A stretch of DNA of 64,000 bases from Phycisphaerae bacterium (GCA_029260055.1 JAJDDX010000500.1:119467-183466); one strand, 5' to 3'. Positions 22,412 through 60,673 are shown, counted from the first letter of the stretch. Program-made: numbers and translations. Notes: generated by a model not told the origin, from the sequence alone.

Positions 22412-22444
22412 CACCATTATGGTGGTATGGTTTGCGATTGTCAA
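22412..22444 (-). promoter_or_regulatory. Sigma70-like promoter with CACCATTATGGTG palindrome over the -10
   Basis: Minus strand TTGACA-17-CATAAT; 13-bp palindrome at 22412-22424, upstream of the MerR-like gene. Confidence 0.55.
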
Positions 22445-25400: not shown

Positions 25401-25575
25401 CGATGCAACCTCGGCTCTTCTCGATGCGGTAGCACCTGATGGGGGTCGGCTTGGTGTCGCTGTACATTGAGAGCTTCTTCGGCACGATGGTCAGCGCCTT
25501 CTTCAGGTACGCGACACCGTCCGCGCCCAGCTCCTCCATCGAGAGCCAGACCATGCCCGAGACCTCAACCTTCAA
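22441..25575 (-). CDS. SF2 (XPB/UvsW-like) DNA helicase, intein-containing precursor
   Basis: GATGFGKTNTALAL, FIDETHRI, GLTATPRRKDG, SEGVDIPAIDT...QAAGRARR; probable TTG start at 25575 preceded by aggagg. Confidence 0.85.
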   Translation of the reverse strand: MKVEVSGMVWLSMEELGADGVAYLKKALTIVPKKLSMYSDTKPTPIRCYRIEKSRGCIGVPRAYFFGTSQGNHEIVWTFSDGEPMAPFKNLLRQEGKYAEQATAIDAMWDHMVVPEGANDNRRGLGLGGILQGATGFGKTNTALALAYKLGRKTLIIVHKEFLMRQWVRRIKRFMPDARVGIVQEARCEFEDHDFSVAMVQSLSLEGKSGEARYPQEFYSHHGLIFIDETHRIGAGSWAPVPSLFAAQYIVGLTATPRRKDGADKVFWWSIGEVVYKAKTETPKPLVRMVESDARGPDMLTEDTVSPSVVINVLTKLTKRNQVVVDEAVKALRSPAGRKLMVISERLEQLKVLEKLIREQSTVEDLSTGFYVGEWFTGEMTLSLKKVRDLEPEERLQAIATIYRHFRRYKAAGDGLKGVQAEDDITKAKSKKKPKVTLMWNGKCGRMTVLYAQDENGDDRFDPAHEISLYKHRHAKRILENLNGKQLCSLARDYDIAQDKSKPVRKPLTEEDLYEAERARVVFATYQMCCVDIDTEVVDPLNGEVVTMRQCIEDGAKVRVVSGRNVCSVVEPSDVGLFGIKECVEVVVGGTGKRSLVLTPDHRMWTQRGWVEAGDLVAHEGSPSSTGGDYVSVPRKLDLETQPTDLSEDDAWLMGLLMADGSLSCPERGTFGLTSDDQELVSEADRVLRSHGMFLAKERHQHWNTRVLGGSSGPGRKSWLREELERLGMCKTAHNKRLPQELVMAPLGIVRSYLGGYVDGDGCVSAEGRFSFSSVSRPLLEQTRTLLLRLGIPTKPPFHGGKGCWVVLLGRHESQVARELVGMRLARKKLRVGSHDKRRLGVGDFTMVPPQMARDLVQRGRDGGFMVKAMAEAAEVFPSKLSAKIVFLSRERYDAIAEFIGEPVLSEAVAWIPVRAVVAVGAREVGDFAVPPDKSWAASGIIVHNSEGVDIPAIDTQVLASPVSDVEQAAGRARRFCVPVAFGGDKTPEDCEHLCSWRAGTCEGKPTPIVADIVDRRFPLTQRRKKYRLSFYRELGTKVAGATG
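22741..23988 (-). mobile_element. Intein in SF2 helicase, LAGLIDADG-type
   Basis: CVDIDTEVVDP...LTPDHRMWT...LMGLLMADGSLS...YLGGYVDGDGCVS...GIIVHN/SEGVDIPAIDT; 416 aa. Confidence 0.93.
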
Positions 25576-29201: not shown

Positions 29202-31844
29202 TCAGAAGGGGACATCGCTGAACTCCTCATCGAACTGCTTCTTGCCCTTGTAGCTCCCGGCGCCACCCTCGTCGTCATCGTCCGGGCTGGAATCAATCTT
29301 CGTCCCGATCTGGTCGAAGTTCATCTGCTCCATGTCCCAGTTGATCACGACGTGGCTCGACCGCGCTCGACGACGGACCTTCAAGGGGACGAACATGAGC
29401 TGCTTGTCGAGCCGCATGTCCGGGTCCTGCCACACGGCGAAGAGGTTGTGGACGTCCATCAGCAACGTGTCGGTGAACGCCAGGGCGTCCTCCAGGCCGC
29501 CTGTGCCCTTGCCCTGCTTCACCGAGTGCCTCGCACCCTTCTTGACCTTGCCCTCGCGAGAGAGCTGGCTGATGCCGAGGATGGGGATGTTCTTGCGGCG
29601 CGAAAGCCGGCGCATCCAGTCGACGGTCTCGTGGATCCTGTCGTACCGGCCGCCCTTGCTCCCTGGCCCCTTCTTTACTTTCCCCTCGTCGACCCTCATC
29701 AGGTAGACGGCATCGAAGACCACGAGCTTCGGTTTGAGGGCGTCGATGGCCGCCTCGATGTACTCGGGCTGGAGCCTGTCCTCGTCGTCGAGGATATAGA
29801 GGTTCTCGCCGATCTCCTCCAGCTTCGTAATGGTCTCTTCGAGCGCTGGCTCGCCCATCATCCCGAGGGTGCCAGCCACGAGGTCGCCGTAGGACAGCCC
29901 GCCGTGCTTGGCGACCATGCGTTCGGCCAGCTCGGTGCGGTTCATCTCGGGGGAGATGATCAGGACCTTGTCGTGGGTCTCCTTGATGATGCCCTGCAAC
30001 CAGACGTGCATCGCGATGATAATGGCCGTCCAGGTGTTGTGGACAATGATGTCGTTGGCGACGAAACACGCGGTTGGATCTACCGTCAAGTCGTAGACCT
30101 TCTGCTCCCCAACGTTCTCGATCGACACCACCTCATCCCAGAAGATCGAGGAGTCCCACCACCACCTGTACTGATCCTCGATGCCATACACTGCTGAGAA
30201 CCCACGAAACGCGGTCATCTTGACGGCGTTGTGGTTTCCGAACAGGTCACGAGTCTGAAAACGAGCGCGGCCCAAGACCTCCGCCACCTTGGCGTGGAGA
30301 CCTCCGGACCACCGCCCGGAACCAACCTTCGACGCACAGCGAAGCTCCTCGACCAACTCGTCTGAAATCCTTGGGGACCCCACGTTGGGGTTTCTCGTTC
30401 GGGGGTTCGAGACGTTCAACCGATCTGCTTTTTGACCCCACAGGGAAAACGCTGACGCGAATGCATTCGCGCAATGCGCGTACACTCTCAACCTCCACGC
30501 ATCGAACCCTCCCTTGATGGGTCGATGTTGCACCCTCGACTGGATTCCAAAACGCAGCAGCAACGACTGAATCTGGCGAACCATCGTCTCCGACGCAAGC
30601 GTGACCAAGGCGTCGCCCCGTTTCGACACCGTTCCATCACACATCCAGAAAATCGACAAGAACCGAGAAAGCTGGTCCTTGGGCAACCGAAATATGGCCT
30701 CAGGCAACACCTTGTTCCGTGCCAACTTCCTGTCAGCCCCGGCGCCTCGCAATATCTCTCGAACCGGGTTCGGACCTACGCTCCCGCGCCTCACCAGGTC
30801 ATAGTCGATCTCATTTCGTGGGGTCACGTCCACGCCAATCATCTCCGCCGCTGAGCAAGCGATCATCAGGATCGCCGGATCGGTGGTCGTGAACCCAACG
30901 TGGTTACCGCTGTAACTCCCCTTCGACAACAAGATGGCCCACAGGTCCAACTCTGCGGGCACCATCCGTGTCGACTGCTCCGGGAACGGCATTTCCGATG
31001 GTAGCGCCAACGACCTGCCCACCTCCAACTCGTCGGCCCTACGCCACCCTTCCGGTGTCAGGAACGGGTGCTCCGGCGTGACCACGACCGACCGGCCGCT
31101 ACGTGTGGTGAAGCGAAGACACTCCTTTCGGCCCGTGTCCACCTTCGCAGTGATGTTCGTTGGGTGTACACCCTCGTCCTTCGACCACGTCGTTACTCTC
31201 TGAACGTCCGACGTGTACACCTCCCGGATGGACCTTGGAACACCTGTCACCGGGTCCACAATTTCAGTGTCTTCGTGGACGCACTTTCCGACGCCTGGGC
31301 GCGCGACGAAGAACGTCAACGTCTGGGGCCACATCCCGAGCGTCATGTCATTCATGGCGTCCCAGGGGAACGGCACACCGATCTCGCCACGTTTGGTGCG
31401 CTCGTACATCTCCTGGACGCCGCGGGCCTCCTGCGCAATCGTCGTGAGCTGGACGTGCTGGATCTTGGCCTGACGCAGCGCATCCGCGAGCGAATGAACC
31501 TCGGTGACCGCGTCATCCTGCTCACCCTCCTCAAGGTGCTCCAAGGATGCCGACAAGCCGTGCTGAAGACACCGGAACTCATGGCGCCTGAAAAGCTGAT
31601 CCGCGAGGTAGGAGAGGTCGGCCCGTTCCTCCTCGTCCGGCTCTCGGATGGACGCGCCCGTCTGCTCGATGACGATACCGATGCCCGGCACCCCCCCGTG
31701 CTCGGATCGGTACTTCTCCAGGAAGCGCCAGGCTGACTTCGAGACGCCCTTGAAGAGGTGCTCGCCGATGCCCAGCTCCTTGGCCCGGAGCATGTCCTCG
31801 TCGCTACGTGTTGCTTGCCAAATAGTTGCTGAATCGAGATCCAA
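29202..31844 (-). CDS. DnaB-like replicative helicase, intein-containing precursor
   Basis: FFVARPGVGK/TWTAIIIAMHVW, KVLIISPEMNRTELAERMVAKHGGLSYGDL, VVFDAVYLM, ILGISQLSREG; probable TTG start. Confidence 0.85.
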   Translation of the reverse strand: MDLDSATIWQATRSDEDMLRAKELGIGEHLFKGVSKSAWRFLEKYRSEHGGVPGIGIVIEQTGASIREPDEEERADLSYLADQLFRRHEFRCLQHGLSASLEHLEEGEQDDAVTEVHSLADALRQAKIQHVQLTTIAQEARGVQEMYERTKRGEIGVPFPWDAMNDMTLGMWPQTLTFFVARPGVGKCVHEDTEIVDPVTGVPRSIREVYTSDVQRVTTWSKDEGVHPTNITAKVDTGRKECLRFTTRSGRSVVVTPEHPFLTPEGWRRADELEVGRSLALPSEMPFPEQSTRMVPAELDLWAILLSKGSYSGNHVGFTTTDPAILMIACSAAEMIGVDVTPRNEIDYDLVRRGSVGPNPVREILRGAGADRKLARNKVLPEAIFRLPKDQLSRFLSIFWMCDGTVSKRGDALVTLASETMVRQIQSLLLRFGIQSRVQHRPIKGGFDAWRLRVYAHCANAFASAFSLWGQKADRLNVSNPRTRNPNVGSPRISDELVEELRCASKVGSGRWSGGLHAKVAEVLGRARFQTRDLFGNHNAVKMTAFRGFSAVYGIEDQYRWWWDSSIFWDEVVSIENVGEQKVYDLTVDPTACFVANDIIVHNTWTAIIIAMHVWLQGIIKETHDKVLIISPEMNRTELAERMVAKHGGLSYGDLVAGTLGMMGEPALEETITKLEEIGENLYILDDEDRLQPEYIEAAIDALKPKLVVFDAVYLMRVDEGKVKKGPGSKGGRYDRIHETVDWMRRLSRRKNIPILGISQLSREGKVKKGARHSVKQGKGTGGLEDALAFTDTLLMDVHNLFAVWQDPDMRLDKQLMFVPLKVRRRARSSHVVINWDMEQMNFDQIGTKIDSSPDDDDEGGAGSYKGKKQFDEEFSDVPF
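30036..31283 (-). mobile_element. Intein inserted at the Walker A P-loop of the DnaB-like helicase, LAGLIDADG-like (degenerate)
   Basis: GVGK/CVHEDTEIVDP...VTPEHPFLTPEGWRRADEL...LSIFWMCDGTVS...ANDIIVHN/TWTA; 416 aa. Confidence 0.93.
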
Positions 31845-39576: not shown

Positions 39577-42500
39577 TCAGCTCCAGACCGAGTGCTGGTA
39601 CTCGTAGCCGATCTTCTTCTTCTTCAGCCACTCGGTGAACTTGTCGAAGGAGATGCCTTTGAGGATCGACTCGTTGGCTTTGAGCATCTTGAAGAGCTTA
39701 CGCGCCGCACCGGGGCTCTTCGAGACGAGCTTGGTGTAGCTGGGATCGTGGCCGCCCCGCATGTCAGAACCAGGCGAATAGGCGCTGAACTTCGTCCACT
39801 CGGCGTGGACGACGAAGTCCTTGGCGTCGATGTCGAGCGGGTCAACATCCTCGGGCTCGACCTGGAGGTAAAAGACCATCTCCTCACGAGGATGGAACCA
39901 GGTCTTCTTGTCGAGGCCGGCCTCCTTCACGGCGGCCTCCATGGCGCTCGAGAGTTTGCTCTTCACCTTGTCGTAGACATCGCCACCCGCGATCTTTGCG
40001 ACCCGGAGAATGTTCTGGGCGATGAACGCTGCGTGGCGGTTGCTGAAGCCCGGATTCTGGAGGGTCAGCTTCCTGAGCTTCTTCTTGCCCTTCACGGGCA
40101 GCTCTTCGAGCACGAAGTGGTAGCCCGACCACTGGAGGCGGTACGCCTTGCCGACGATCTTGCCGTCCCAGCGCGGACCCTCTTCAAGAGGCTCCGGTCC
40201 CTGCGTCCTCCGGTGGGCATCGTCGCGGGAGCGCTCCATGACCGTCTTGGCCAGGTGCATGGACCCGCCGACCATCTCCATGAGGGCGTCCTTGGACGGC
40301 ACGTCGCGCTCCTCAGGTCGCTGGCGACTGCTCTCGATGACGAGCTGGTTGAGGTTGGTCGGGCCAACGCTCTCAACCAGGAGACCGACGCGGCCGAAGG
40401 CGGATGCCTCGACGCTACTGGAGCCGGCGCTCTTGAGGCGCTTGGCGAGCATGAGGGCGCGGAGCATCCCCGTCTCATCCTTCGAGCGGCCCGTGCGGCC
40501 CTTCATCTCGCGGATGGTCGCGTCGATGCGATCGACCGGGATGTCATCACCGTTGTTGACGCCGAGGAAGCGACTGACCCGGTTGGGGTCCTTGACCGCA
40601 TCGGCGATCGACCTCTTCTCGCTCAGCGACAGACGGTCGAGGTCCTCGAAGCTCTCGGTCTTGGCGCCACGGGAGAGGTGCTTGACCACCCGGTCGAGCA
40701 TCATCTTGCACAGCGCGTCGAGCCCAGTCTTCGAGCCCACCGACACGATCTGTCCGCCCCAATCCCGCGGAAGGTTGACCGTCCCCTGGAAGTAGTTGTC
40801 GTCTGGCTGCCGGATGACGAACTGGGCCTGTAGCTTCTCGTTCTTGGCAGTCACGATACCGATCGTGGCCGACATGCCCCACTGGGAACGCTTGCTCGGC
40901 CCGAACTTGTCCGTGTCGAGGATCCGGAGCTTCGCCTTCGGCGTGATCGCGCCGAGACCCTTCATGAGCTTCTTGCCGACCGCCGGTGGCGTCGGGTTCC
41001 CGCCAGCCTCCTCGAAGAAAGGGTCCGTGGACTGATCCACATCCTCGGAGAACTTCGCGAGCGTCGCGAGATCATGTTTCTCGATGGCCTTCGCGGCGGC
41101 CACAGGGGTCTTGAAGGTGCCAGAGAGGCCCTGGAGCTTGCCGTTGCCAACCACCCAACCCTGCTTCTCGTAGCCAGCGGGCAGGTTCCCCGCGACGCGC
41201 TTGGCCGCCGGGTTGATGCCGTAGCTGCCGTAGCGGTAGCTCATCGAGCCACCTCTCATCTTTCCGTCGAGCGACGACTTGTACTTCCTACCAACACCAC
41301 CGCCCGAGACCGCGTACCCCGAGTAGCTCTCGGCCTCGCCCAGATCCGAGCCCTCAGACTCCGCGTACTTGGCCCGCTTCGCACGAGGGTCGTCCGAGTC
41401 GGTCTCGAAGTACCGCTTGAAAATCTGGAGCGCCATCATCTCACCGCTCACGCGGGTCACGAAGATGAGATAGAGGAGCCCGGCGTTGCTCGGGACCTTA
41501 CGCACGTACTTCGCGAGCTTCGGTGAGACCTTCTGGAGGTTCTGCATCCACTTGTTGAAGGCCGGCCGCGGCTTGCCCGCGATGAAGTCCTGGGTGTCGT
41601 TGAGATGCGGGTCGTCCTTGACCCCCCACGCCAGGCCCAACTTGTCCCTGGGGATGGCGGTGATGGCCGCTCGGACCTTCGGGAAGAGCATCTCCTCGGG
41701 ACCCTTGCCCGCCTCGTCCTTCCACATCTTCAGGACCTTGGAGGAGACCTTGAAGCCGCCGGGTTTGGTGGGCTTGTCCTCACCGCCGAACGCAAGGCCA
41801 GGGGCACCGCGCTGAGCTTCGTCGAGACGGCCAGCAGCGAGGAAGTCTGAGAGGTTCGAGTGTTCCATATATCCCCGTTGTGACGCCTTCCAGGCGGCTG
41901 ACTTTTGACGCTTGATCCGAGCGCTTGCGGGCTCGGGAGAGGCGTTGGGTTGTCTCAACGCCGGCCGGTCGCCGTGCGACTTTTTGAGGGTCTTCGCGAT
42001 GTCGCTCTCGAACTTGTTCTGGATGCTCATGTACTCCAGGTACGGGAGCGACCAGGCGCCGTTGTTGAAGCGGAAGCCGACTCGTTTGAGCAGCTCCTTG
42101 ATCGGGTAGGTGTTGCCCTCGAAGACGATGTCCGCGTCGTGGATGGTGCGGTTGCCCTTCCACAGGATGCGCACCTTCACGTCGTAACGGTCGAGGCGTG
42201 CCTTGCGCCGGATGCCGCTCTCGACCTCCTTGATCTTCTTCTTCGTCGTGGAAGGGAGCGGGGTCTTCATCTCGTCGCTCGGGTAGCCGACGGTCGCGAA
42301 GTGGTCCTGGTTCTTGCGTAGGATCCCGTCGTTGTGCCGCTGCACCAGGTCGTTGACCTTCTCGATGGTCGCGCGGACCTTGGCCTCGGGCACATTGCCG
42401 CGGTGGCTCCGGTGGTCATCCCGGATGTGAATCATGGACCAGCCCTTGTTCCGCTGGTCGAACTTGAGCCCGAGCTTCTTCAGCTCGTCCTTGATGGGGA

Positions 42501-43491
42501 AGGACCCGCCGGAGACGTGAACCCCATACTCACCAGGCAGGGGGTATCCACCGCTCGAACCACCACGGAAATCCCCGAAGGCCGTGTTCGAAACCCTGAC
42601 CTGGACGCGCTGCTCCAGCCGCTCAGCGAGGTAGCGCTCCTTCTCGTCGGGAGTCTTCCCCCAGCTCGCGAGAGCGTGGGTTGCCTCCTCGAAGAGGGTG
42701 TCCGTGGGCGGCTCCACGCCCTCGTGCGCGCGACGCGCTGACGCCTTCACGATGAAGTCGCCGATGGCCTTGCCGAGCTTCTTTGGGTCGGACGAGGTGA
42801 TGGTCCTGGAGACCTTCCGGTTCTTCGAGGAGACCTGCGCAGCGAGCTTGTCGCCGCCGCTGAGGACGTTGCTGATGTCGATCTCGAAGCGGTTCCAACC
42901 GGTCCGCTCCTGCCCCACGTGAACCGAGAGGATGTGCCGCTGCGGGGTCGTGATGTCGGCCTTCGAGCCCCCCGCCTCGATCGCACGAGCGACCTCGCGC
43001 GAGAACGGGCTAGCGACCTTCAGTTCCTCGGCGGACCAGTTCATGGCCTCGCCCAGCTCGACCGACTCGTGCTTGAGACCCCCTTCGACGCGGTCCACGA
43101 TGGCCCTACCGATCTTCTGGTTGCCGCCAGCCTTCTTCCCCAGCTCGACGAGCGTGCCGAGATCGGTGAACCTACTGTCCTTGCTGCCCTGAACCTTCAT
43201 GGCGGCCTCGTAGCCACTCCTGGACCTGAAGATCTGGATGGTCGCGCTTTGGTCGCCAACTTTGAAGGTGACCTGGACCTTGCTCGCGCCCACCCCAAAG
43301 GCAGTCCCAGATGTCCTGCCATCCTTCTTGATCTGGACCGCGACCGTGTTCCCAACCTTCTCCAGGTCGGCGTCGTTGCCTTCGTTCACCAGCTCGAAGT
43401 ACGCGGCCCATTCGGCACCAAACGTAAGGTCGGAAGCCCCACGGTGAGCTTCGTCAACGCGGCTCTCACTCAAAAACGATCGGATGTCCAT
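39577..43491 (-). CDS. Giant (~1300 aa) putative capsid-targeted internal protein/polyprotein
   Basis: Starts MDIRSFLSESRVDEAHRGASDLTFGAE; second related leader MEHSNLSDFLAAGRLDEAQRGAPGLAFGGE in frame at 41868. Confidence 0.6.
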   Translation of the reverse strand: MDIRSFLSESRVDEAHRGASDLTFGAEWAAYFELVNEGNDADLEKVGNTVAVQIKKDGRTSGTAFGVGASKVQVTFKVGDQSATIQIFRSRSGYEAAMKVQGSKDSRFTDLGTLVELGKKAGGNQKIGRAIVDRVEGGLKHESVELGEAMNWSAEELKVASPFSREVARAIEAGGSKADITTPQRHILSVHVGQERTGWNRFEIDISNVLSGGDKLAAQVSSKNRKVSRTITSSDPKKLGKAIGDFIVKASARRAHEGVEPPTDTLFEEATHALASWGKTPDEKERYLAERLEQRVQVRVSNTAFGDFRGGSSGGYPLPGEYGVHVSGGSFPIKDELKKLGLKFDQRNKGWSMIHIRDDHRSHRGNVPEAKVRATIEKVNDLVQRHNDGILRKNQDHFATVGYPSDEMKTPLPSTTKKKIKEVESGIRRKARLDRYDVKVRILWKGNRTIHDADIVFEGNTYPIKELLKRVGFRFNNGAWSLPYLEYMSIQNKFESDIAKTLKKSHGDRPALRQPNASPEPASARIKRQKSAAWKASQRGYMEHSNLSDFLAAGRLDEAQRGAPGLAFGGEDKPTKPGGFKVSSKVLKMWKDEAGKGPEEMLFPKVRAAITAIPRDKLGLAWGVKDDPHLNDTQDFIAGKPRPAFNKWMQNLQKVSPKLAKYVRKVPSNAGLLYLIFVTRVSGEMMALQIFKRYFETDSDDPRAKRAKYAESEGSDLGEAESYSGYAVSGGGVGRKYKSSLDGKMRGGSMSYRYGSYGINPAAKRVAGNLPAGYEKQGWVVGNGKLQGLSGTFKTPVAAAKAIEKHDLATLAKFSEDVDQSTDPFFEEAGGNPTPPAVGKKLMKGLGAITPKAKLRILDTDKFGPSKRSQWGMSATIGIVTAKNEKLQAQFVIRQPDDNYFQGTVNLPRDWGGQIVSVGSKTGLDALCKMMLDRVVKHLSRGAKTESFEDLDRLSLSEKRSIADAVKDPNRVSRFLGVNNGDDIPVDRIDATIREMKGRTGRSKDETGMLRALMLAKRLKSAGSSSVEASAFGRVGLLVESVGPTNLNQLVIESSRQRPEERDVPSKDALMEMVGGSMHLAKTVMERSRDDAHRRTQGPEPLEEGPRWDGKIVGKAYRLQWSGYHFVLEELPVKGKKKLRKLTLQNPGFSNRHAAFIAQNILRVAKIAGGDVYDKVKSKLSSAMEAAVKEAGLDKKTWFHPREEMVFYLQVEPEDVDPLDIDAKDFVVHAEWTKFSAYSPGSDMRGGHDPSYTKLVSKSPGAARKLFKMLKANESILKGISFDKFTEWLKKKKIGYEYQHSVWS

Positions 43492-43493
43492 GG

Positions 43494-44015
43494 TCACTCC
43501 TGCTTGGCGACGATCACGACGCCCGGAAGAGCGGCGATGCTGGCCTGGTCGGCGATATCGGCCGCGATCTGGATGGCCGTGACGGTCTCCAGGACCGTGG
43601 CCTTGTCGAGGTTCTTCCAGTTGTCGGTCGAGCTGAACCGGTACTGGAGAGAGATGTCCGCGTCCGCCACCAGGGCGTTGACGCTCGTGCCGGCGTTGCC
43701 GAAGAACGCGCCGATGGCCGTCTTCACGCCCGAGATGGTCACCGGGACCGAGAAGGTCATCAGACTCCACTCGACGCGGTTGGTACCGAGGACGCCTACC
43801 GCCAGCTCGATCGACTTGTTGGCGTGGTCGATGCTGACGGAGCCGGCACTGCTGTCGACGTTGTCGAAGTTGAACAGTAGTTCGACGTCACGCGCCAGAT
43901 CATCGATTCGGGCGAGCATCGCGGCCCGCGTCGCCGACGACAGGGCCGTGTCCTTGGTGACGCTCTCGCGAAGGAGCGACTGGAATATCGCGAAAGTCGT
44001 CGTCGTCGTAGCCAT
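43494..44015 (-). CDS. Putative virion protein
   Basis: 173-aa ORF upstream of the giant protein. Confidence 0.5.
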   Translation of the reverse strand: MATTTTTFAIFQSLLRESVTKDTALSSATRAAMLARIDDLARDVELLFNFDNVDSSAGSVSIDHANKSIELAVGVLGTNRVEWSLMTFSVPVTISGVKTAIGAFFGNAGTSVNALVADADISLQYRFSSTDNWKNLDKATVLETVTAIQIAADIADQASIAALPGVVIVAKQE

Positions 44016-45114: not shown

Positions 45115-45149
45115 TACCCCATTCTTATGGGGTAACAATCAAGAGTCAA
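45115..45149 (-). promoter_or_regulatory. Promoter with 8-bp-arm operator-like palindrome
   Basis: TACCCCAT-TCTT-ATGGGGTA (45115-45134) overlapping the minus strand TTGACT-16-TAAGAAT -10. Confidence 0.6.
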
Positions 45150-48100
45150 CCACGTCCACATGGAGGCCCCTGTTTTTGAGGAAGTGCTCGGCGAGCTTTT
45201 TGATGTGGTTGGGGTCTGTTTGGAGGTTCTCGACGAGCGATGCGTCCGGGTTCTTGATACCGGTGATCTGCTGGCGCTTCAGGCCGAGGATATCGGCGAT
45301 GACCGGATCGGATCCGTCCTCGGCGATGAGGAAGTAGGCGACACTCCCCTCGGTCTGGCCGTCGCGGTGGTAGCGCCCGATGCAGTTGCCCACGACCACC
45401 ACCTTGCCCCCTCGCCTCACGACAAGGGTTCCCACATCGTTGGTCACGCACCAGACGCGCTGAGGCTCCCACGGATCGGCCTTGATCCGGTTCGGTTTGG
45501 ATGGTCCAGGAAGCGACGCCTCTTCTGCGTCGGACAGCCAGATGTCGTAAATCGGATTTCCGACCCTGGTTCGTCCCTTTCGCTTTGAAATATTCGCAGC
45601 CATTCCGCGACGCACACAGATCGATTGAAGCCGATCGAGCATGTTTTTGTTGACGCTAGTGATCCTTTTCACGTTTTTGAGACGAGTCGACTTGCTGCCA
45701 TCTCCCATCCAAAGACCGTGAAGAAAATGTTCCAGTTGCTCCCGAGTCATGTCCTCCATGAGTGGGCTCATATCCTTGTCTAGATACGGTTCCAGGTGAT
45801 CCCAGCCACGACCGATGCGCTGGCACAGCGTGCCCTCATCCACACCTTGCGTTCTCCTGTATCGCTTTCCGACAGCCACAGGACTACGATCGACACTCCT
45901 TGCCACCTCACCGTAAGAGGCCCCATCAGCAACCATTTCCATCATTTGACCGACTTCACTGATCGACCACCGACGTGAACCACGTCCGCTCGGCACGTAG
46001 TAGATGTTCATCCCACTGGGTCGCGTACACATGCCCCAGTCGATCCGGCACCCATTCAACGTCTCCCTCAGGTCTGCGTTCCACCGCTGATGGTCGGCTT
46101 GATAGAACTGAAGCTGCCTACCGTTGAAGCTCCCGTCAGACACGAACCACCCAATCAGTCGAAGTTCGTAGTCTGTGAGACATACACCCCGAATATCCCC
46201 CTCTCTTCCTGAGACGGGAACGTACCTCCTCGACGCCCCATCCAAAGACGAAGCGTCGACCATTTCCCATGCCGATCGCGTAACACCACTCGCGGTACGC
46301 CTCCCGCACCGAACAACCATACGGTGTCCACCCGTCACACACAGGTCGATCTTCTCGGTCTTGGTGACGAACATTCGCTCATCAGCAGCAAGGGGCCTGT
46401 CGATCTTTTTTACGACTGGTCGCCACACAATCCGTCCATCGACAAACGCGGCAACCTCGTGCCCCAGATGGACCTCATCCACGCCCCTAAACCCGTCTCT
46501 AGTTAGTACCTCCGTGTCTTCCGATAGGCACTGCTCGTGGACTCCCGGCGACCAGTCCAACTCGCCGAAGACCCCCACGTTGCAGCACTCCTGGAGCCCG
46601 TCGAGACCTGCCCCCGACCGGAGGCTCATGATCAGCACCCGGGCGTCCCCGGCGACGAACGCCTCGCGGGCACGGTCCTTCTGTTTGACGCTCTCCTGCC
46701 CCGTGAAGAGGACCGGGTTGTACTCCTTGAGCGCGGCCTTCCAGACGTCGTAGACGGCGTGGTGCCAGCCGTAGAGGATGACCTGTTGCTCGCTCTCAAT
46801 GAGCATCTTCACGAAGTTGGCCACGTGAGGGGCCTTCCCGAGCCCAGTGGCCTGCCTCAGTTTCCAGTCCAGTTCGCGAGCGGCTTGGCCCTTGGCCGTG
46901 AACGCCTCTCCCTGACTGAGGATGATGCGGGCCAGCTCGGCGGCAGCGTCCTTCACCTCGTCGAGGATCTTGGGGTCTGAATCCACGTGGTACGGGATGC
47001 GGGTGAGCGGCGGCAGTTCGCGGCCGACCTCGCGACGGGTGCGCCGGATCATCAGCCCTGACTCGCGGACGAAATGGCCGAACGCCTTGGGGTTCGTGAT
47101 GCGGGCCTTGTCCTCAGAGTAGGAGTAGGAGCACCACTCGCGCTGAAACTCGGCCTTCGACCCGAGCGAGTCCGGCTGGAGGATATCGAGGATGTTCCAC
47201 ATCTCCCCGCCATAGTTGTAGATGGGGGTCGCGCTGAGCCCGATGCGGTAGTTGGTCGACCGCGAGATGTGCTCGGCCGCGAGGCTCTTCGCCGTCCTGT
47301 CCCCGTAGGTACCCCGCCGCCGTAGCTCCTGGCACTCGTCGAAGACGACCGACTCAATCTTCGACGCGAGGACCTCGGCCCACTTCGAAAGCTTGTGGTA
47401 GTTCACAATGATCACGTCAGGGAAGGGCGGTTCGGACTCCATCCAATCAGTCCACGCTTTCTGCTTCGACACGTCGGAACCCTTGTCGACCCGACCAGCG
47501 AAGGCGCAGTGGTGGCACCCCACGCCCACACACGAGGGGCACTTGGCGGTGCCCACCTTGGGGCGCTTGTTGGACTTCTTGATCGTGTCGGCGCGCATCT
47601 TCGCGGCGATGTCGTAGGGCTTGATCTTCTCGATGATGTGCCACCGCAGCTCGGGCGCGAACTTCGTTAGCTCACGTCCCCACTGGGTCTGGAGGTGGGT
47701 CATCGTCACGACGAGGGCCGGCCGGGTTCCGGGCTCGACCATGGTGCAGATGGCCGTGGCGCTCTTTCCGAGCCCAAGATCGTCTGCCACGAGGAGCCCG
47801 CGCGACATGAGGGCCAACTCGGCGCCAACCTTCTGATACTTCCGTGGCGGAAGAGCGAGTTTGAACTTCCGCGGCTTCAGGGTGCCGCTGAGGACCTGGT
47901 GGAAATCCAAGGCTCGCTTGTCGAAGGTCGCCGACGCCTTCGCCATGTAGGCCCGGTGCTCCTCGGTCATCTCCATCGGGAACCGTCCAAGGAACCAGTT
48001 CAGCTCCCGGCAGTTCTCCTCCGAGTTGACCAGGGTGGTCTTGCCGAGGTGACGATCGTTCACCTTTGCGAACGTCCGCTTCAGGCGGAGCATCGCATGG

Positions 48101-48207
48101 GGCTCGCACTCGATAAGCCACACCCCTCCCGGTCCGGCCGCCTTGGGTGGGTGCTTCATCCCGTTCGCCTCCACGGTGCAGAGGGTGACCTTGCCGACGT
48201 TTCTCAC
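45139..48207 (-). CDS. SNF2-like SF2 helicase, intein-containing precursor
   Basis: LLVADDLGLGKSATAICTM, VVFDECQELR, IGLSATPIYN, VLIMSLRSGAGLDGLQ, CIGRYHRDGQT. Confidence 0.88.
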   Translation of the reverse strand: MRNVGKVTLCTVEANGMKHPPKAAGPGGVWLIECEPHAMLRLKRTFAKVNDRHLGKTTLVNSEENCRELNWFLGRFPMEMTEEHRAYMAKASATFDKRALDFHQVLSGTLKPRKFKLALPPRKYQKVGAELALMSRGLLVADDLGLGKSATAICTMVEPGTRPALVVTMTHLQTQWGRELTKFAPELRWHIIEKIKPYDIAAKMRADTIKKSNKRPKVGTAKCPSCVGVGCHHCAFAGRVDKGSDVSKQKAWTDWMESEPPFPDVIIVNYHKLSKWAEVLASKIESVVFDECQELRRRGTYGDRTAKSLAAEHISRSTNYRIGLSATPIYNYGGEMWNILDILQPDSLGSKAEFQREWCSYSYSEDKARITNPKAFGHFVRESGLMIRRTRREVGRELPPLTRIPYHVDSDPKILDEVKDAAAELARIILSQGEAFTAKGQAARELDWKLRQATGLGKAPHVANFVKMLIESEQQVILYGWHHAVYDVWKAALKEYNPVLFTGQESVKQKDRAREAFVAGDARVLIMSLRSGAGLDGLQECCNVGVFGELDWSPGVHEQCLSEDTEVLTRDGFRGVDEVHLGHEVAAFVDGRIVWRPVVKKIDRPLAADERMFVTKTEKIDLCVTGGHRMVVRCGRRTASGVTRSAWEMVDASSLDGASRRYVPVSGREGDIRGVCLTDYELRLIGWFVSDGSFNGRQLQFYQADHQRWNADLRETLNGCRIDWGMCTRPSGMNIYYVPSGRGSRRWSISEVGQMMEMVADGASYGEVARSVDRSPVAVGKRYRRTQGVDEGTLCQRIGRGWDHLEPYLDKDMSPLMEDMTREQLEHFLHGLWMGDGSKSTRLKNVKRITSVNKNMLDRLQSICVRRGMAANISKRKGRTRVGNPIYDIWLSDAEEASLPGPSKPNRIKADPWEPQRVWCVTNDVGTLVVRRGGKVVVVGNCIGRYHRDGQTEGSVAYFLIAEDGSDPVIADILGLKRQQITGIKNPDASLVENLQTDPNHIKKLAEHFLKNRGLHVDVVDS
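45385..46530 (-). mobile_element. Intein in motif VI of the SNF2-like helicase, LAGLIDADG-type
   Basis: HEQ/CLSEDTEVLTRDGF...VTGGHRMVV...LIGWFVSDGSFNG...FLHGLWMGDGSKS...VVVVGN/CIGRYHRDGQ; 382 aa. Confidence 0.92.
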
Positions 48208-50530: not shown

Positions 50531-53485
50531 CTAGTGGCTGGTGAGCGAGAACTCAGCCGGTGGCGGGACCACACCCGGAATCGGAGAGTGCCCGACCTCG
50601 TCGAGGTAGTCGCTCGGCGGGAGCTGGACAACCCGATTCCCGACCGCGACGTTGATCGCGTAGCTGTAGTGCAGCTCGTCCTTGGCGCGGGTCGAAGCCA
50701 CGTAGAAGAGGCGACGCTCCTCCTCGGGGTCCTCGGCGCGGCCGTGGGGGAGGATGCCGTGGGCGCAGCCGATGACGATGACCACGGGCCACTCCAGGCC
50801 CTTGCTGCGGTGGATGGAGCAGAGGGTGACCTTGTTCGGATCCTTTTTGCCGCGCTTCTCGCGACTGGCCCTGATGGTGCGGTCGACATAGTCGAGCAGC
50901 TCGCGGACGGTGGGGAAGCGACCCGCGGCGCGGACCATCTCACGAACGTTCGAGACGCGGGAGTTCTCGGTCGACTCCTCGCCCTCGTCGCGGATGAGCC
51001 ACTGGGTGTAGCGGGTCTGGGTGACGATGGAGTCGAGGATGCGGGCCGGAAAAGCCGCGTCACGTGCCTCTGCGCTCGCTCCCTCGGCGGCACCGGCCTG
51101 GATCTCAGCACGGAGGTTCTCGATCATCGAAGCCCAGTCCTCGGCGGCGTAACGCTGGCGGCGCTGGATGCCGGCGCGCTCGTTGGCCTCCTTGACGACG
51201 GCAAGCCAGGAGAAGCGAGTCCCCTCGCTCTTGGCCCTACGGGCGTGCATCTTGGCGACCTCGCGGACCTTCTCTACGTAGCGCTTGCCGAGGAAGCGGA
51301 AGGGACTGTTGATGCACTTCTCCATGGAGTCGAGCCAGTCAACGAACTTGCCGTGGCCCGAGGCAACGCGGAGGTACCCGAGGAGGTTCTTGACCTCGCG
51401 GCGCTCGTAGAAGCTCGTGCCGCCGAGAATACGGTAGGGGATGCGGTGGCCGATGAGGCCCTCTTCGGGAGCGCGGGACTGGGCGTTCGTGCGGTAGAGG
51501 ATAGCGATGTCACGAGGCTCGACGCCGGCATTAGCCACGAGGGTGGCGATGCGGTGAGCGACCGACTCGCCCTCGTCTTCGAGGTTCATGAACTCGGTCG
51601 AGGTCACGGTGCCCTCTGTGTCCCGCTCGCAGATCATGTCGAGGTCGAGGCGGGTGGTCGGGTCCATCGCCGCGAGGGACCTGTTGGCGGCGTCGATGAT
51701 CTTCGAGCCACAGCGGTAGTTGCGGCCCATCTTGACCACGCTGGCCGACCAGTCCTTCTCGAAGCCGAGGAGCTTCTCGGGGCGGGCGCCGCGCCAGGTG
51801 TAAATGCAGTTCAGAACCACGATGCCATTGGCGGCGTAGGAATGATCCTTCTCCACGTCAAGGGAGTAGACCAGGCCCGAGTACATCCGTGATGGAACCG
51901 CATCAATGGGAGCCCACATGTTCCGGTCGTCTGGGAGCGGAACGCTCATCAGGCCCGGCAGGAGGTTGATAGCGTGGACCGGGAAGTAGGTGCCGCGCAC
52001 GTAGTCCGCATTAGGGTCGTCGGCTTCTGTTGCCGGGAAAGGCCAGAACGGAAAGTCGACGGATCGACTGTACTTGGCGAGCACCTGTGGTCCACGCGAC
52101 CATGTGTTCACCGACCCGAAAATCTCGGGGATAGCAGCGGTGTCGAGGTGGGTGTTGCTGACTGGCTCGAACGTCGCCGTGGGGATACCATGCTTGGCAG
52201 CCACGATGGACTCGTGGATACTCGCTTCCCTCCGGGTCTTGTGGGTCTTCAGAATCCAGACCTTGTCAGCTTTTTCCAGCTTCGCGCGCGTCACGAGGTG
52301 TAGGTTCCGGGACTTCCCTCTGGAGGCGAGGAGCTGGCACCACCCGACGCGGTATCCGAGGTCCTTACGGTACATGAGGTAGGTGACGCAGGTGTCGTGG
52401 TCGTCTCGATTGGTCCACCGACAGAGCACCTTGTGGTTGTCGGTCATCTCGGTCGAACGGTCGCAGACACGCATATCGAAGAGGCGACCGTCATAGACGC
52501 GGCTACCCAAGCTGGCACGGCGTCCTCCCACCATCTTCTGTGCTTTGCGATTCCACCCCTTGACGGTGATGAGCTTACCTTCCTGGTCTGCCCACAGGTC
52601 TTCAATCGAAACGTCACCATCATCGGTGGCGATCATCGTGCCAGGAGGGTGACACTGGGCGGGGTCGCCCACGAGGACGTAGTTGCGGTGGTCCTGCGCG
52701 AGGAGCGAGCCCATCATGAGCTGGGGGAGTGACTGGTCCTGGGCTTCGTCCTGGATGACCCAGTCCCAACGGGCGGCCCAGCGGAGGCGGATGTCTTCGT
52801 TGTCAACCATGGCCTCGACCGAGTCGATGAGCATGTCGGCGAAGGTGAGCAGGCGGCGCTCGCGGCGAATCTCCTCGGCACGCTCGTATGCCTCGTGAAG
52901 GAGGGCGGGGTTGTGCTTGGGGCCGGGGTACTTGGCGTAGATACCCTCGGCGATCTCGATGGCCTCATCCGAGTTCGGTCGCGCCATGTTCGACTTGCAG
53001 GTCTCGATGTAGGTCGCAAGGGCAGTTACGTCGGCCTTCTTCCAGTTCATGTGCTTGTAGCCGGTGACCTCCTTGAGAACGACGCGGAAACGGTCCTTGC
53101 TGTCGATGGTCCAGTCCCACTCGCTGCCGAAGCTGCCGAGGCACTCGCTCCTGTGGATCTCCAGGGCCACCGAGTGGAACGTGCCCACGCGGGCGTCGGT
53201 CTCGCCGATGAGGTTCTTGAGCCTCTCGTTCATTTCGTCGGCGCCCTTCTTCGAGAAGGTCACGGCGAGAATACGGCCGGGGTGGACGCCCTTGACCTTC
53301 ACGAGGCGCGCGATGCGGTGAACGACCACGCGGGTCTTGCCGGCGCCCGCGACGGCGACGAGAAGTTTGGGTCCCTCTTCATGGAGGACAGCTTCGCGCT
53401 GCTCGGGGTTCAGGCCAACGAGGAGCTTGTCCTCGTGCTTGATGTCGACCCCGCGGCTCACGTCAATAATGTCTCCGATGCCCAT
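50531..53485 (-). CDS. UvrD/PcrA-like SF1 helicase, intein-containing precursor
   Basis: LNPEQREAV, AVAGAGKTRV, VIQDEAQDQ, LVGDPAQ/CIYTWRGA, TLCSIHRSKGLEWPVVIVIG, EERRLFYVASTRA; start MGIGDIID at 53485. Confidence 0.9.
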   Translation of the reverse strand: MGIGDIIDVSRGVDIKHEDKLLVGLNPEQREAVLHEEGPKLLVAVAGAGKTRVVVHRIARLVKVKGVHPGRILAVTFSKKGADEMNERLKNLIGETDARVGTFHSVALEIHRSECLGSFGSEWDWTIDSKDRFRVVLKEVTGYKHMNWKKADVTALATYIETCKSNMARPNSDEAIEIAEGIYAKYPGPKHNPALLHEAYERAEEIRRERRLLTFADMLIDSVEAMVDNEDIRLRWAARWDWVIQDEAQDQSLPQLMMGSLLAQDHRNYVLVGDPAQCHPPGTMIATDDGDVSIEDLWADQEGKLITVKGWNRKAQKMVGGRRASLGSRVYDGRLFDMRVCDRSTEMTDNHKVLCRWTNRDDHDTCVTYLMYRKDLGYRVGWCQLLASRGKSRNLHLVTRAKLEKADKVWILKTHKTRREASIHESIVAAKHGIPTATFEPVSNTHLDTAAIPEIFGSVNTWSRGPQVLAKYSRSVDFPFWPFPATEADDPNADYVRGTYFPVHAINLLPGLMSVPLPDDRNMWAPIDAVPSRMYSGLVYSLDVEKDHSYAANGIVVLNCIYTWRGARPEKLLGFEKDWSASVVKMGRNYRCGSKIIDAANRSLAAMDPTTRLDLDMICERDTEGTVTSTEFMNLEDEGESVAHRIATLVANAGVEPRDIAILYRTNAQSRAPEEGLIGHRIPYRILGGTSFYERREVKNLLGYLRVASGHGKFVDWLDSMEKCINSPFRFLGKRYVEKVREVAKMHARRAKSEGTRFSWLAVVKEANERAGIQRRQRYAAEDWASMIENLRAEIQAGAAEGASAEARDAAFPARILDSIVTQTRYTQWLIRDEGEESTENSRVSNVREMVRAAGRFPTVRELLDYVDRTIRASREKRGKKDPNKVTLCSIHRSKGLEWPVVIVIGCAHGILPHGRAEDPEEERRLFYVASTRAKDELHYSYAINVAVGNRVVQLPPSDYLDEVGHSPIPGVVPPPAEFSLTSH
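51809..52654 (-). mobile_element. Intein in the UvrD-like helicase, possible degenerate GIY-YIG-like insert
   Basis: GDPAQ/CHPPGTMIATDDGDVSIEDL...MTDNHKVLCRW...TYLMYRKDLGYRVGWC...ASIHESIVAAKHGIP...GIVVLN/CIYTWRGA; 282 aa. Confidence 0.88.
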
Positions 53486-56495: not shown

Positions 56496-56990
56496 CTAGA
56501 TACCCTTCCAGCCTCGCCCACTAAGGTACGCACGTATCTCGTCAGGCTTCATATTGGTGTCCCTAGACATCCGGTCGATGGAATTGGTGACCACTCGCGA
56601 TCGGTCAGGCCCCTTCGAGCCGGCTGCGATCTTGAGCTGCTTGTAGAAGCGGCTGCCCGTGATCCTCTTGAGGGTCTTCATATCCGACGCCTTCGCGTGA
56701 TCCCGCTGAGCCTCCTGAGCCTTCTTCCACATGAACGCCTGCGACTTGCTCGACTCTCCGCGTCCCTTGAGGATCGCCGCGCACCTTGTGCCGACGTAGA
56801 TCTCACCGCTCTCGTCGGCGTGATCTCGACTCTGCATGACCACGCACTTCTTGAGGTTGCTCTTCCCGCACCTCTCGCACTGGTCGTGGTCACCGGACGT
56901 CCCGATGATGTCCCAGGCCCCAGCCATCCCGCCCTTGGCCCGCGCCTCGGTCAGTCCGCGGCTCTCGGCCAAGTATTCTTGAAGGTCCAT
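56496..56990 (-). CDS. CTS-type cargo candidate, Cys-rich protein
   Basis: Starts MDLQEYLAESRGLTEARAKGG; CERCGKSNLKKCVV zinc-like motif. Confidence 0.6.
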   Translation of the reverse strand: MDLQEYLAESRGLTEARAKGGMAGAWDIIGTSGDHDQCERCGKSNLKKCVVMQSRDHADESGEIYVGTRCAAILKGRGESSKSQAFMWKKAQEAQRDHAKASDMKTLKRITGSRFYKQLKIAAGSKGPDRSRVVTNSIDRMSRDTNMKPDEIRAYLSGRGWKGI

Positions 56991-56992
56991 GG

Positions 56993-57559
56993 CTACAGTC
57001 TTGCCCCTTTCCGGAACGCACCACCCACACCGGTCTTCATAGCAGATTTGAGGTCCCTGACCGTGATGCCCTGGTCCTTGAAGAGCCGCTGGTAGAGCGC
57101 GGTGGCGATTCCCGTGCGCCTGAACTCTGGCTCCACCTCCACGAACAGGATGTCGTACTCCTTCTGCCACTGGCGCCACGAAAGCACCCCCACGCGCTCG
57201 CCTGACGGGAGGTAGGCGTGAATCCACCCCTCCCACTGATCCCCCATCGAGTCCCCACCGGTCTTGATCTTGAGCCCACGGATCTCCACCGTGCCCTGGG
57301 GAGTGCTTTTGGTGAGCCGCCGCATGATCTGGCCCTGAAACCGTGTGCCTCCGTCGCCGGTCCAGAAGACCGTTCGCCCACGCCACACAGCGAGCTGTTG
57401 CCCACCCATACCGCTCTGGTGGAGCTTCTTCCCGTCGGTGCTCAGGATGCCACCGGAGTCATCGAGAGGCAGTTGGTCCGCAAAGGCGTCGACGACCTGG
57501 AGGGTGCTCTTACGCAACCTTGATTCGGCCAGGTATTCGCGGAGATCCATGGTGGGCAT
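56993..57559 (-). CDS. CTS-type cargo candidate, GNAT-like acetyltransferase
   Basis: MPTMDLREYLAESRLRKS; ILFVEVEPEFRRTGIATALYQRLFKDQG acetyl-CoA-binding motif. Confidence 0.65.
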   Translation of the reverse strand: MPTMDLREYLAESRLRKSTLQVVDAFADQLPLDDSGGILSTDGKKLHQSGMGGQQLAVWRGRTVFWTGDGGTRFQGQIMRRLTKSTPQGTVEIRGLKIKTGGDSMGDQWEGWIHAYLPSGERVGVLSWRQWQKEYDILFVEVEPEFRRTGIATALYQRLFKDQGITVRDLKSAMKTGVGGAFRKGARL

Positions 57560-57560
57560 T

Positions 57561-58876
57561 CTACCCGTCAGGTGGCCGTTCCTTCCAGTTGCCAGTCACG
57601 AGGGCCGGGATCCCGAGCGTGTGGCAGTCGAAGACGTACTCTTCGGCGCGTGTGACCTTCGAGCCCCACTCGCCCACGACACCGCACCCTCCGCACGCCA
57701 CATCCGAGTCGTCGACGTCCTCGTGCGGCTTCTTCCCGTCCTCGTCGAGCTTCAGGCCCCGGAGGGCGCCCATCTTCTGGGTCAGCTGCGTGCGGTAGGT
57801 CGCCACCTCCCACCGGGCCACCAGCTCGGGATCCGTAGTCCTCACGAAGCACTGGTTCGACAGGTACTCCTCATCGGAGTTGCCGCCCCCGTGACAGACG
57901 CCCTTGGATATGTACTTGGCGGCCCTCTCCAGGCCCTCACGGCTTCCCCGCGGGTCGGTGGCATGGTTGCGGCGTCCCTTGCCTGCCGGGGCGTAGGCGA
58001 CGTCCTGAACGTGAATCGAGCCGATACGGTCCAGGTCCTCGTGTGCAGACGTCTGCATGACCGACTCCAGCACGTAGGAGTTCGTCGGCGGGCCGAAGTA
58101 GAGGAGGTTCGCGTGAACGTGACCGCGGACAGAGACCTCGATCGTCCGGTAGCAGCCGGCCTTCGGAACCTTCAGCTCGTGCTGCCACAGGTACTTCACC
58201 GACCGCGCCGCAAGCTGGACGCGAGACCGCAGACCCTCGACGCTGAGATCCTCGGGATCATCCGGGTCGTAGGGGAACGTCATCACGACCATGTGCCAGC
58301 GGTGCCCCCGGTGGTCGAGCTTGTCGAACGCCTTCCCCATCCATTCGCTCACGCGCTTCGCGCGGACCCAGGCGCACGTCGGGCATCCCCTGGTCTTGCA
58401 CGTGTGCGTCCCCTCGTAGGTACCCGTTCCCCCACGTACCGATCCGCAGGCTCCGCACGAACGAACCATCACATGAGACCCACAACGCATGAACGACTCC
58501 AGCCTCTTCTGGAGCTTCAACCTCACCCCGACTGGCTCAGCCGCAATAGCCTCATCCCATTCGTCCCGTACAGCTCGCTTGAACGTGTTCCGGTTGTGAC
58601 CCCATCTGGAGAAACCTGAATCGTCCCAATGGGTTGAAGAGTTCTTTCCCTTTTGATCAAGAGAGCGACGGCGGCGGCGCTTCTTCGGGCGGCGCACCTT
58701 CCGATCCGAGCAAGGGTCCGGCGGCGTGTGGCGGCCCGACCGCGAGGCATGGTGTGGCGCTACGTTGCCTGACACCACTGGTTGTTGTAGATCTGGTCCT
58801 ACCACGCTCAATCCCCTGGCTTCGTGTGGTTTCCAGTCGGGCCAACGCGCGCAAGCGCGACCAAAGCCCAACCACA
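57561..58876 (-). CDS. HUH-type rolling-circle Rep-like endonuclease (start uncertain)
   Basis: CKTRGCPTCAWVRAKR, HMVVMTFP (motif I-like), GHVHANLLYFGP (HxH), AAKYISKGV (YxxK). Confidence 0.65.
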
Positions 58877-58906
58877 TCGAGAGGAATTCCCCTCCGCTCG
58901 ATGTGG
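58872..58906. repeat. Perfect 10-bp inverted repeat with 15-nt loop
   Basis: CCACATCGAG-aggaattcccctccg-CTCGATGTGG in the divergent region next to the HUH gene. Confidence 0.75.
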
Positions 58907-59041
58907 GGCTGGTGTATCCAGCTCCCGGTGAAGGAGGGGACGGTACCTGTGAGGGACCGGGCCGGCAAGCGGCTAACACCTGCCGCCTGGCAGTTGTTAG
59001 CTCATGGAACTGGACCCCCCCAATCGAGTAAGGTGTGCGGC

Positions 59042-60301
59042 ATGGATCTACAGCACTTCCTCGCCGAGCAACGGCTGACCGAGGGAAGCTCGTTCGACGA
59101 GGCGTGGGTCAAGGGCATCCGGAAGTGGTGGAAGACCTGGTCGTCCCGAGGGAAGAGGTTCGAGGGCCGCTACACGACCGTGGGCGGCCTGGGACACAGG
59201 TCCGGGCTCGAACACCTGGACGCCGCCGGGGCCGCGGCCAAGGCGTACCTGACCGAGGGGCACGAGATGGTCGAGCGCCTGAAGACCGACCTCCTGGTCA
59301 ACAAGGGCTTCTGGCACGTGCCGGACAAGAAGGCCGACAAGGGGATGCTCGCCCGCGAGTGGAAGACGAAGACCGTCCAGGAGATCGACGAGGCGAGAAA
59401 ACTCCTCGTCGCCGGGGTACGCGCCGTCGAGTTCTGGTCCGCGGGTGGCTATGACGCCGGCCCTCACATGTCCCGAGAACAGACCGAACTGAAGCTCCGT
59501 GACATCGAGAAGGTCAACAGGATGATCTCGACGATCAACGCGGCCGTCGACGAGGTTGTCGAGCGCGTCGACAAGATCATCTCGGGTCGTCTCCTCCGAC
59601 ACCTGACGAAGCTGGCCAAGATGGGCGGGTGGCAGGACAACAAAGTCGACCTTGGGGGGCACGAGCCCGAGGCGGTGACCCTGGGGAAGGCCCAGCTCAT
59701 CTTCATGGGCACCCCGAAGGGAAAGGCGACGGCGAGCGCCCGTCACCCGCGAATGAGGAAGCGGTACATCGCGTTCGCGCAGGACGTTCGGAATACCCTC
59801 CGGAAGCACAACCTCGGCTACCTCTGGTATGGGAAGTTTTTCACGAAGGCGAAGGGGGACGCGCCCGAGAACCACCTGGGGGTCCACTTCGGGGTCGGGG
59901 CCACCTACTCCCGCAAGGGCGACTACATCACCGTCTACGCGGACCCGAAAAGGAGCATGGCGTTCATGCTCATCCACGAGCTGGGGCACCGCTACTACTA
60001 CAAGTTCATGAACGCCACGGACCGGCACAACTTCGACCGCTGGTTCGGGAAGACGAAGCCCACGAGCAACTACGGTGCAACGATCTCCTCGGAGGACTTC
60101 GCCGAGGTCTTCGCTAGCTACGTGACCGGCAGAAACATCTCGCGCGACCAGGCCGCGCGACTCAAGGAGTTCTTCGGTCGCACCAAGCGCCTGGAGAGCC
60201 TCTCCGTGCCTGATAGGATAGCGACCATGGAACTCCAGTGTTTCCTCACCGAGAGCCGCCGGCGGCGTGGTAGAACCCTCGTCCGCTCATACCCAACCTG
60301 A
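59042..60301 (+). CDS. CTS-type cargo candidate, HExxH zinc metallopeptidase
   Basis: MDLQHFLAEQRLTEGSSF start; MAFMLIHELGHRYYYKFMN; downstream SSEDFAEVFASYV; in-frame C-terminal MELQCFLTESRRRRGR. Confidence 0.65.
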   Translation: MDLQHFLAEQRLTEGSSFDEAWVKGIRKWWKTWSSRGKRFEGRYTTVGGLGHRSGLEHLDAAGAAAKAYLTEGHEMVERLKTDLLVNKGFWHVPDKKADKGMLAREWKTKTVQEIDEARKLLVAGVRAVEFWSAGGYDAGPHMSREQTELKLRDIEKVNRMISTINAAVDEVVERVDKIISGRLLRHLTKLAKMGGWQDNKVDLGGHEPEAVTLGKAQLIFMGTPKGKATASARHPRMRKRYIAFAQDVRNTLRKHNLGYLWYGKFFTKAKGDAPENHLGVHFGVGATYSRKGDYITVYADPKRSMAFMLIHELGHRYYYKFMNATDRHNFDRWFGKTKPTSNYGATISSEDFAEVFASYVTGRNISRDQAARLKEFFGRTKRLESLSVPDRIATMELQCFLTESRRRRGRTLVRSYPT

Positions 60302-60316: not shown

Positions 60317-60673
60317 ATGCTCAATCCCCTCGGTGACCGAGTCATCATCCGCCGCGACGAAGAAGAGGAGAAGACCGAAGGTGGTCTCTTCATCCCGGAC
60401 ACCGCCAAGCAGCCGCCCATCGAGGCGACCGTCATTGCCATCGGACCTGGGTTCCGCTGCCCCGACAACGGCATCTTCATCGAGACGACCCTCAAACCCG
60501 GCCAACGGGTCATGGCTGGCCCCCACGCCGGCATCGAGGTGTCCATCGACGTCGAGGACGGCAACGGGAAGATGAAGCACATCCTTCTCCGCGAGGGAGA
60601 GATCCTCGGGACGCTCGACGGCAACAGCGAGGAAAAGAAGGCTGAAGCCCGGAAGACGCACGAGACGAGCTAG
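60317..60673 (+). CDS. GroES-like co-chaperonin (second of two)
   Basis: LNPLGDRVIIRRDEEEEKTEGGLFIPDTAKQPPIEATVIAIGPG...VMAGPHAGIEV. Confidence 0.85.
   Translation: MLNPLGDRVIIRRDEEEEKTEGGLFIPDTAKQPPIEATVIAIGPGFRCPDNGIFIETTLKPGQRVMAGPHAGIEVSIDVEDGNGKMKHILLREGEILGTLDGNSEEKKAEARKTHETS

Follow-up and report, generated by a model that had tools for sequence, protein, structure and literature searches.

Why do four unrelated proteins of one phage, with lengths of 164, 185, 419 and 1304 amino acids, all begin with MD[LI][QR]x[FY]L[AS]E[SQ]R? The genes lie in the window, the whole 64,000-nucleotide stretch that was analysed, which makes up the final 64 kb of a contig of 183,466 bp. Because the first 141 bases of this contig recur at its end, it is circular, with a length of approximately 183.3 kb. 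The contig is a T4-like phage. In the window's assembly, a complete circular phage contig (C445) is binned with a 7.6-Mb bacterial assembly. An earlier note on this DNA had read the shared starts as a modular tag, resembling the T4 capsid-targeting sequence (CTS), that sends diverse effectors into the capsid for injection into the host.

Head genes and leader-bearing proteins in the window

A codon-model gene caller yielded 257 genes with predicted starts on the contig; because this caller is simple, individual starts are possibly off. On the reverse strand, g197 (3518-5017) encodes a gp23-type major capsid protein (Pfam PF07068, E 1.5e-63) with the predicted maturation site RQLHE61|DTL, and g201 (9096-11801) encodes a gp20-type portal protein (Gp20, E 2e-53) that is interrupted by an intein and carries [LI]xE|GF at its N-terminus. 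The gp21-like protease that the earlier note had assigned to 5108-6769 was recovered as g198, an S77 prohead protease on the same strand (Pfam PF03420, Peptidase_S77, E 6.2e-18; PHROG 207, E 1e-43) with an LxE site of its own close to the N-terminus and a long C-terminal extension that is perhaps a scaffold. Adjoining it is g199 (6976-8037, reverse strand), an acidic head-module protein with several LxE sites, which we regard, by inference of its function, as a candidate prohead-core component. Of nine relatives searched, eight have an S77 protease, and the remaining one is a 33-kb fragment.

Inteins (Pfam Intein_splicing) occur in the portal, terminase and DnaB-helicase genes of the window (9096-11801, 11806-15168 and 29202-31793). 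Further inteins are probable at 22441-25575, 45139-48207 and 50531-53485, on the basis of LAGLIDADG domains in two further helicases and an insertion of approximately 280 residues in the UvrD helicase that has no counterpart in relatives, which would bring the number to up to six in one 64-kb stretch.

Re-reading of the sequence bore out the leader positions 56990, 57550, 59042 and 43491 that had been proposed, and with them the claim that the bodies behind these leaders are unrelated (GNAT, HExxH...E zinc-peptidase-like, Cys-rich and a giant open reading frame). The 164-aa Cys-rich protein g245 (MDLQEYLAESRGLTEA; 56496-56990, reverse strand) starts with MDLQEYLAESR (56958-56990, reverse strand) and has no homologue among the relatives. 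In g246 (56993-57550, reverse strand), the leader MDLREYLAESR (57518-57550, reverse strand) precedes a GNAT-like acetyltransferase body (Pfam Acetyltransf_1, E 8.9e-5, 23.2 bits against a cut-off of 20.7); the start is at 57550, or at 57559 if MPT is included. The 419-aa zinc-peptidase-like protein g248 (MDLQHFLAEQRLTEG; 59042-60301, forward strand) begins with MDLQHFLAEQRLTE|G (59042-59074, forward strand), and the 1304-aa mosaic protein g231 (MDIRSFLSESRVDEA; 39577-43491, reverse strand) begins with MDIRSFLSESRVDE|A (43459-43491, reverse strand). Three of the four leaders are followed, a few residues downstream, by a second site (GLTE|A in g245, RLTE|G and RVDE|A). Next to g231 lies g232 (43494-44015, reverse strand), a conserved 173-aa protein; in the relatives examined, its gene neighbours either the giant gene or the cluster of tagged genes.

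The earlier note had counted a fifth leader at 41868. Its sequence, MEHSNLSDFLAAGRLDEA, is real, and a weak GGGGA element stands ahead of the ATG, but it does not open a separate reading frame and is instead residue 542 of g231. This internal leader (MEHSNLSDFLAAGR; 41827-41868, reverse strand) is located just ahead of LDE|AQ, the start of a module common to four relatives. A sixth leader-like copy, MELQCFLTESRR (60227-60262, forward strand), is found close to the C-terminus of g248. Homologues have a similar sequence at their ends, for example ...ESLSDQLIGALREA in the homologue of the relative G009, with which the copy aligns. Apart from these two internal copies, the strict leader is present on only four proteins of the window phage.

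Residues H312/E313/H316 and E351 of g248 are invariant in four homologues. Pfam matches of g248 to zinc peptidases were weak and below the cut-off, a PDB profile search with g248 homologues gave no match, and an AlphaFold model of g248 from one sequence (pLDDT 43) was too poor for use. One homologue, in a 485-kb uncultured phage, aligns from residue 18 onward and thus without the leader. Because this phage (LR745208.1, locus L040; 276786-277910 and 351940-352239) has both the peptidase body of g248 and a module that occurs in the giant protein G005_47, we infer that cargo modules move between distant large phages. A search of IMG/VR for close relatives of the g231, g245, g246 and g248 bodies found none. 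Directly downstream of g248, a Cpn10/GroES-like co-chaperonin is encoded (60317-60673, forward strand; Pfam PF00166, E 2.9e-21), possibly an analogue of T4 gp31.

The pattern M..D...[FY]L.E[SAQ]R had 4 matches in the 257 called genes and 0 in 2000 residue shuffles, and [FY]LxE[SAQ] was observed 5 times close to a protein start, with 0.23 expected; for motifs this short there are no E-values, and these shuffle controls take no account of relatedness. The leaders of g245 and g246 are identical in eight of the nine residues after Met, and five of those codons differ synonymously. Because of these synonymous differences, we attribute the likeness to selection on the leader peptide and not to conserved or recently copied DNA.

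Tagged proteins in related phages

Searching with the capsid protein, we retrieved 24 IMG/VR loci with 66-87% identity and no relatives in genome_contigs. Four long and six partial relative contigs, several of which are fragments, were gene-called. The leader of the relatives differs in sequence, with the register kept, as M-x-[LI]-[SA]-x-x-L-x-E-[AS] (for example, MSLSEQLQEA, MSIAQQLQEA and MRLSEQLAEA). The strict pattern was matched by 17 of 304 genes in G004, 12 of 302 in G005, 7 of 322 in G008, 5 of 211 in G009 and 5 of 49 in G010, and approximately 0.04-0.6 are expected per relative genome from shuffles and internal windows. In complete genomes, the counts were 10-40 times above shuffles. 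In G010, the head operon includes at least five tagged genes, located next to the capsid gene. A simple hydrophobic moment of the relatives' leaders was 1.43 compared to 0.86 for random windows; because the four leaders of the window score only 0.67-0.92, amphipathicity alone does not define the tag.

G009 mainly uses a second leader type, MD[IV]xxVNxVLxxAIxxFQ, on at least seven proteins. This leader (L072-L079) is similar to the N-terminus of a protein that is conserved, present in a single copy and placed, in the other phages, between the homologues of g186 and g188; its counterpart here is g187, at -3175 relative to the window start (contig 116291-116443). It looks as if the tag of G009 had been re-derived from this N-terminus.

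Similar short N-termini could also be produced by chance, through composition bias, or by recent duplication of DNA. Short motifs are easily over-read: a DNA-pattern scan of IMG/VR for MxLSEQLxEA gave mostly chance matches outside the clade, plus two known relatives, and the same scan for the window leader found nothing. Because the UvrD helicase of G004 (G004_236) fits the leader pattern and its homologues do not, some matches must be due to chance. The excess over shuffles, the synonymous codon differences and the unrelated bodies nevertheless contradict an origin by chance or duplication, which we consider barely credible for the leader family as a whole. In the window phage, g240, the UvrD homologue of G004_236, was rejected as cargo, as homologues lack the motif.

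Applying a slightly wider leader pattern to the ten related contigs and the window phage, we obtained 70 tagged proteins. Detectably related bodies were present in only 1 of 379 within-genome pairs, and 31 of the 70 have no homologue in the set. The earlier note had accepted in advance that its reading would be refuted if the leader recovered only homologous full-length proteins, and this outcome did not occur. Most tagged bodies are without a recognisable family. The exceptions in the relatives are two RelA/SpoT bodies (E 1.8e-9 and 3.8e-9), an SprT-like peptidase body (E 4.4e-8) and a SAM lyase body (E 2.1e-6, at the cut-off). Within the tagged cluster of G004 there is also a short untagged protein, G004_252 (L049:10958-11335), that has, by eye only, the look of an S-adenosylmethionine decarboxylase.

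Predicted cleavage signature and the giant mosaic protein

The [L/I]-x-E signature of the leader matches the predicted cleavage site of the capsid protein. Judged by sequence only, the capsid block RQL[HQSNE]E|DTL holds L and E constant and varies the middle residue; its location is the one where T4 gp23 is cut. The [L/I]-x-E signature is also present at the N-termini of the portal ([LI]xE|GF) and the protease (LxE), where L and E are kept and x varies. In two pairs of tagged homologues, the conserved sequence starts right after the site, with FLFE|GTRYPVGTVRDW and FLAE|GTRFPVGTVRDW in the RelA/SpoT pair and LLE|ASLGRIWQH and VLE|SSLGRIWQH in the SAM-lyase pair.

The starts of T4 gp21 substrates served as a positive control (MKTYQEFIAEA in IPII and IPIII, MAKINELLRES in gp24 and MLKEQLIAEA in gp22). 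The earlier note had given the first of these starts to IPI-III; this is right for IPII and IPIII and wrong for IPI, which starts with MKTFKEFTSTTTPVSTITEA. Compared with MKTYQEFIAEA, the leader has the same shape in a register that is one residue shorter, and ten residues are too short for a claim of homology. In look, the leader is closer to the starts of gp22 and gp24.

Because gp22 and gp24 have similar starts and are not injected effectors, the tagged proteins might likewise be prohead-core or structural proteins. In that case the leader would signal core assembly and cleavage, and its former carriers would stay in or leave the head without any action in the host. Some tagged proteins are indeed conserved, acidic or encoded in head or tail modules (the g182 and g190 homologues and G005_140/G008_176). 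The recognisable bodies, however, are enzymes with targets in the cell (RelA/SpoT, SAM lyase, GNAT and peptidases), and the bodies turn over fast, as seen from the share without a homologue in the set. A purely structural role appears improbable to us, albeit the most serious objection to targeted cargo that we weighed.

Shuffled modules make up g231, and seven giant proteins of relatives are mosaics of the same kind; the earlier note had not recognised g231 as a chain of this type with the sites at its module edges. A module of approximately 150 residues that starts with LxE|AQ (VxE|AQ in G008) is found at five different positions, beginning at residue 558 of g231, 21 of G001_35, 334 of G007_54, 822 of G005_47 and 526 of G008_272. 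It directly follows the N-terminus in G001_35 and the internal leader in g231, as the fusion of a tagged gene into g231 would predict. Solo tagged proteins correspond to modules of the giant proteins: G004_251 to a module within G005_47 and G008_272, and G010_40 to the C-terminal module of G004_118. Of 41 module edges, 21 were no more than 10 residues away from a predicted site, compared to 7.4 by random placement; because raw edges are not independent, the test was repeated with overlapping edges merged. ESLDEA-type linkers recur in G005_47 and G006_35. A Pfam search of g231 and G005_47 returned no significant domain, g231 showed no known polyvalent domain, and its only PHROG match (15706) was weak. 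Whether g231 is a capsid-matured cargo polyprotein, with several injected proteins in one chain that tag-like linkers pull into the head and the prohead protease cuts apart, its modules moving freely between solo and fused forms and a single tag system serving both, is in our opinion an evenly balanced question.

The same sites bear on the idea that the leader is a sorting signal with another purpose, such as tail or baseplate incorporation, an intracellular compartment or regulated host proteolysis. One tagged family, the g182 homologues, does lie among tail or baseplate genes, but [L/I]-x-E|[A/S/G] is common to the leader, capsid, portal and protease, the cognate protease is encoded in the genome, and no other pathway accounts for the same sites between the modules of giant proteins. 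We hold this idea to be very unlikely.

Proposed route into the host and known systems

What can be read from sequence is the shared leader, the unrelated bodies, the protease family, the site signature and the position of module edges at sites. With the S77 protease present and the leader matching the capsid-site signature, the modular T4-CTS-like tag of the earlier note remains the best reading of these data. We consider it probable that the leader is a capsid-targeting and cleavage tag of the T4 CTS type for co-injected cargo and that g231 represents the same principle in fused form; docking, cutting, packaging, injection and effector roles are inferred, in the absence of virion data.

In the proposed mechanism, tagged proteins would be made together with the head proteins and dock in the prohead core through the amphipathic leader. 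After assembly of the shell, the S77 protease would cut behind [L/I/F]-x-E, probably twice in most leaders (at FLAE|S and then at LTE|A). With the leader cut off, the freed cargo would therefore stay in the head and enter the host with the DNA. There, the accessory effector bodies (GNAT and zinc peptidase; in relatives RelA/SpoT, SAM lyase and SprT) would probably act immediately, by countering defence or reprogramming the host. In the giant g231, the cargo modules would form one chain, split by tag or cleavage linkers.

If true, the list of injected proteins of an uncultured phage can be read from sequence, and up to about twenty proteins per genome (RelA/SpoT, SAM lyase, peptidases, GNAT) become testable as counter-defence or host-takeover factors. 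The principle of the T4 internal proteins would then also hold in a distant, uncultured clade that carries enzymes as cargo. A phage head polyprotein that is cut by the prohead protease would be suggested as well, and the leader could serve as a ready-made tag with which proteins are loaded into capsids. In the literature searched, which left out most subscription journals, we found neither the clade, the leader family and such numbers of tagged proteins per genome, nor leaders that are alike within one phage but differ between phages, nor mosaic giants with sites between modules or a cargo polyprotein cut by a prohead protease.

The tag principle itself is already known. In T4, internal proteins join the prohead core via a short N-terminal CTS, are trimmed by gp21 and are then injected; Ip1-3 have only the leader in common and block different restriction enzymes (PMC9958956, PMC12373910, PMC3012670). 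The T4 system (IPI-III and Alt) resembles the one described here in its N-terminal leader ending in [L/I]xE, S77 protease, gp23-type head and unrelated accessory bodies; the T4 internal proteins are injected anti-restriction proteins. It differs in the leader sequence, which is one residue longer, and in having a handful of tagged proteins instead of up to 17-21 per genome. Unlike in T4, recognisable enzymes occur as cargo here, the leaders are uniform within a phage and different between phages, and fused mosaic giant proteins with internal sites are present.

The ejection proteins of phiKZ and SPN3US are likewise inner-head proteins with shared N-termini (MANFVKSKLARESVE in both gp53 and gp54) that a prohead protease cuts after x-x-E, but they mostly have long propeptides on related paralogues, whereas here a tag of 10-15 residues precedes unrelated bodies (PMC5694885). 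In P1, the N-terminal 30 residues direct the large anti-restriction protein DarB into the head; this concerns one protein and another head type, without a shared tag family (PMC9024508). For the mosaic giants, the nearest published idea is that of the polyvalent proteins of phages and conjugative elements, which are large, multidomain, built from solo modules and thought to be injected, and which include the same effector classes (lethal-factor-like zinc peptidase, RelA/SpoT and GNAT). Their release has been proposed to occur by embedded zinc peptidases (PMC5512222), whereas the linkers described here resemble prohead-protease sites.
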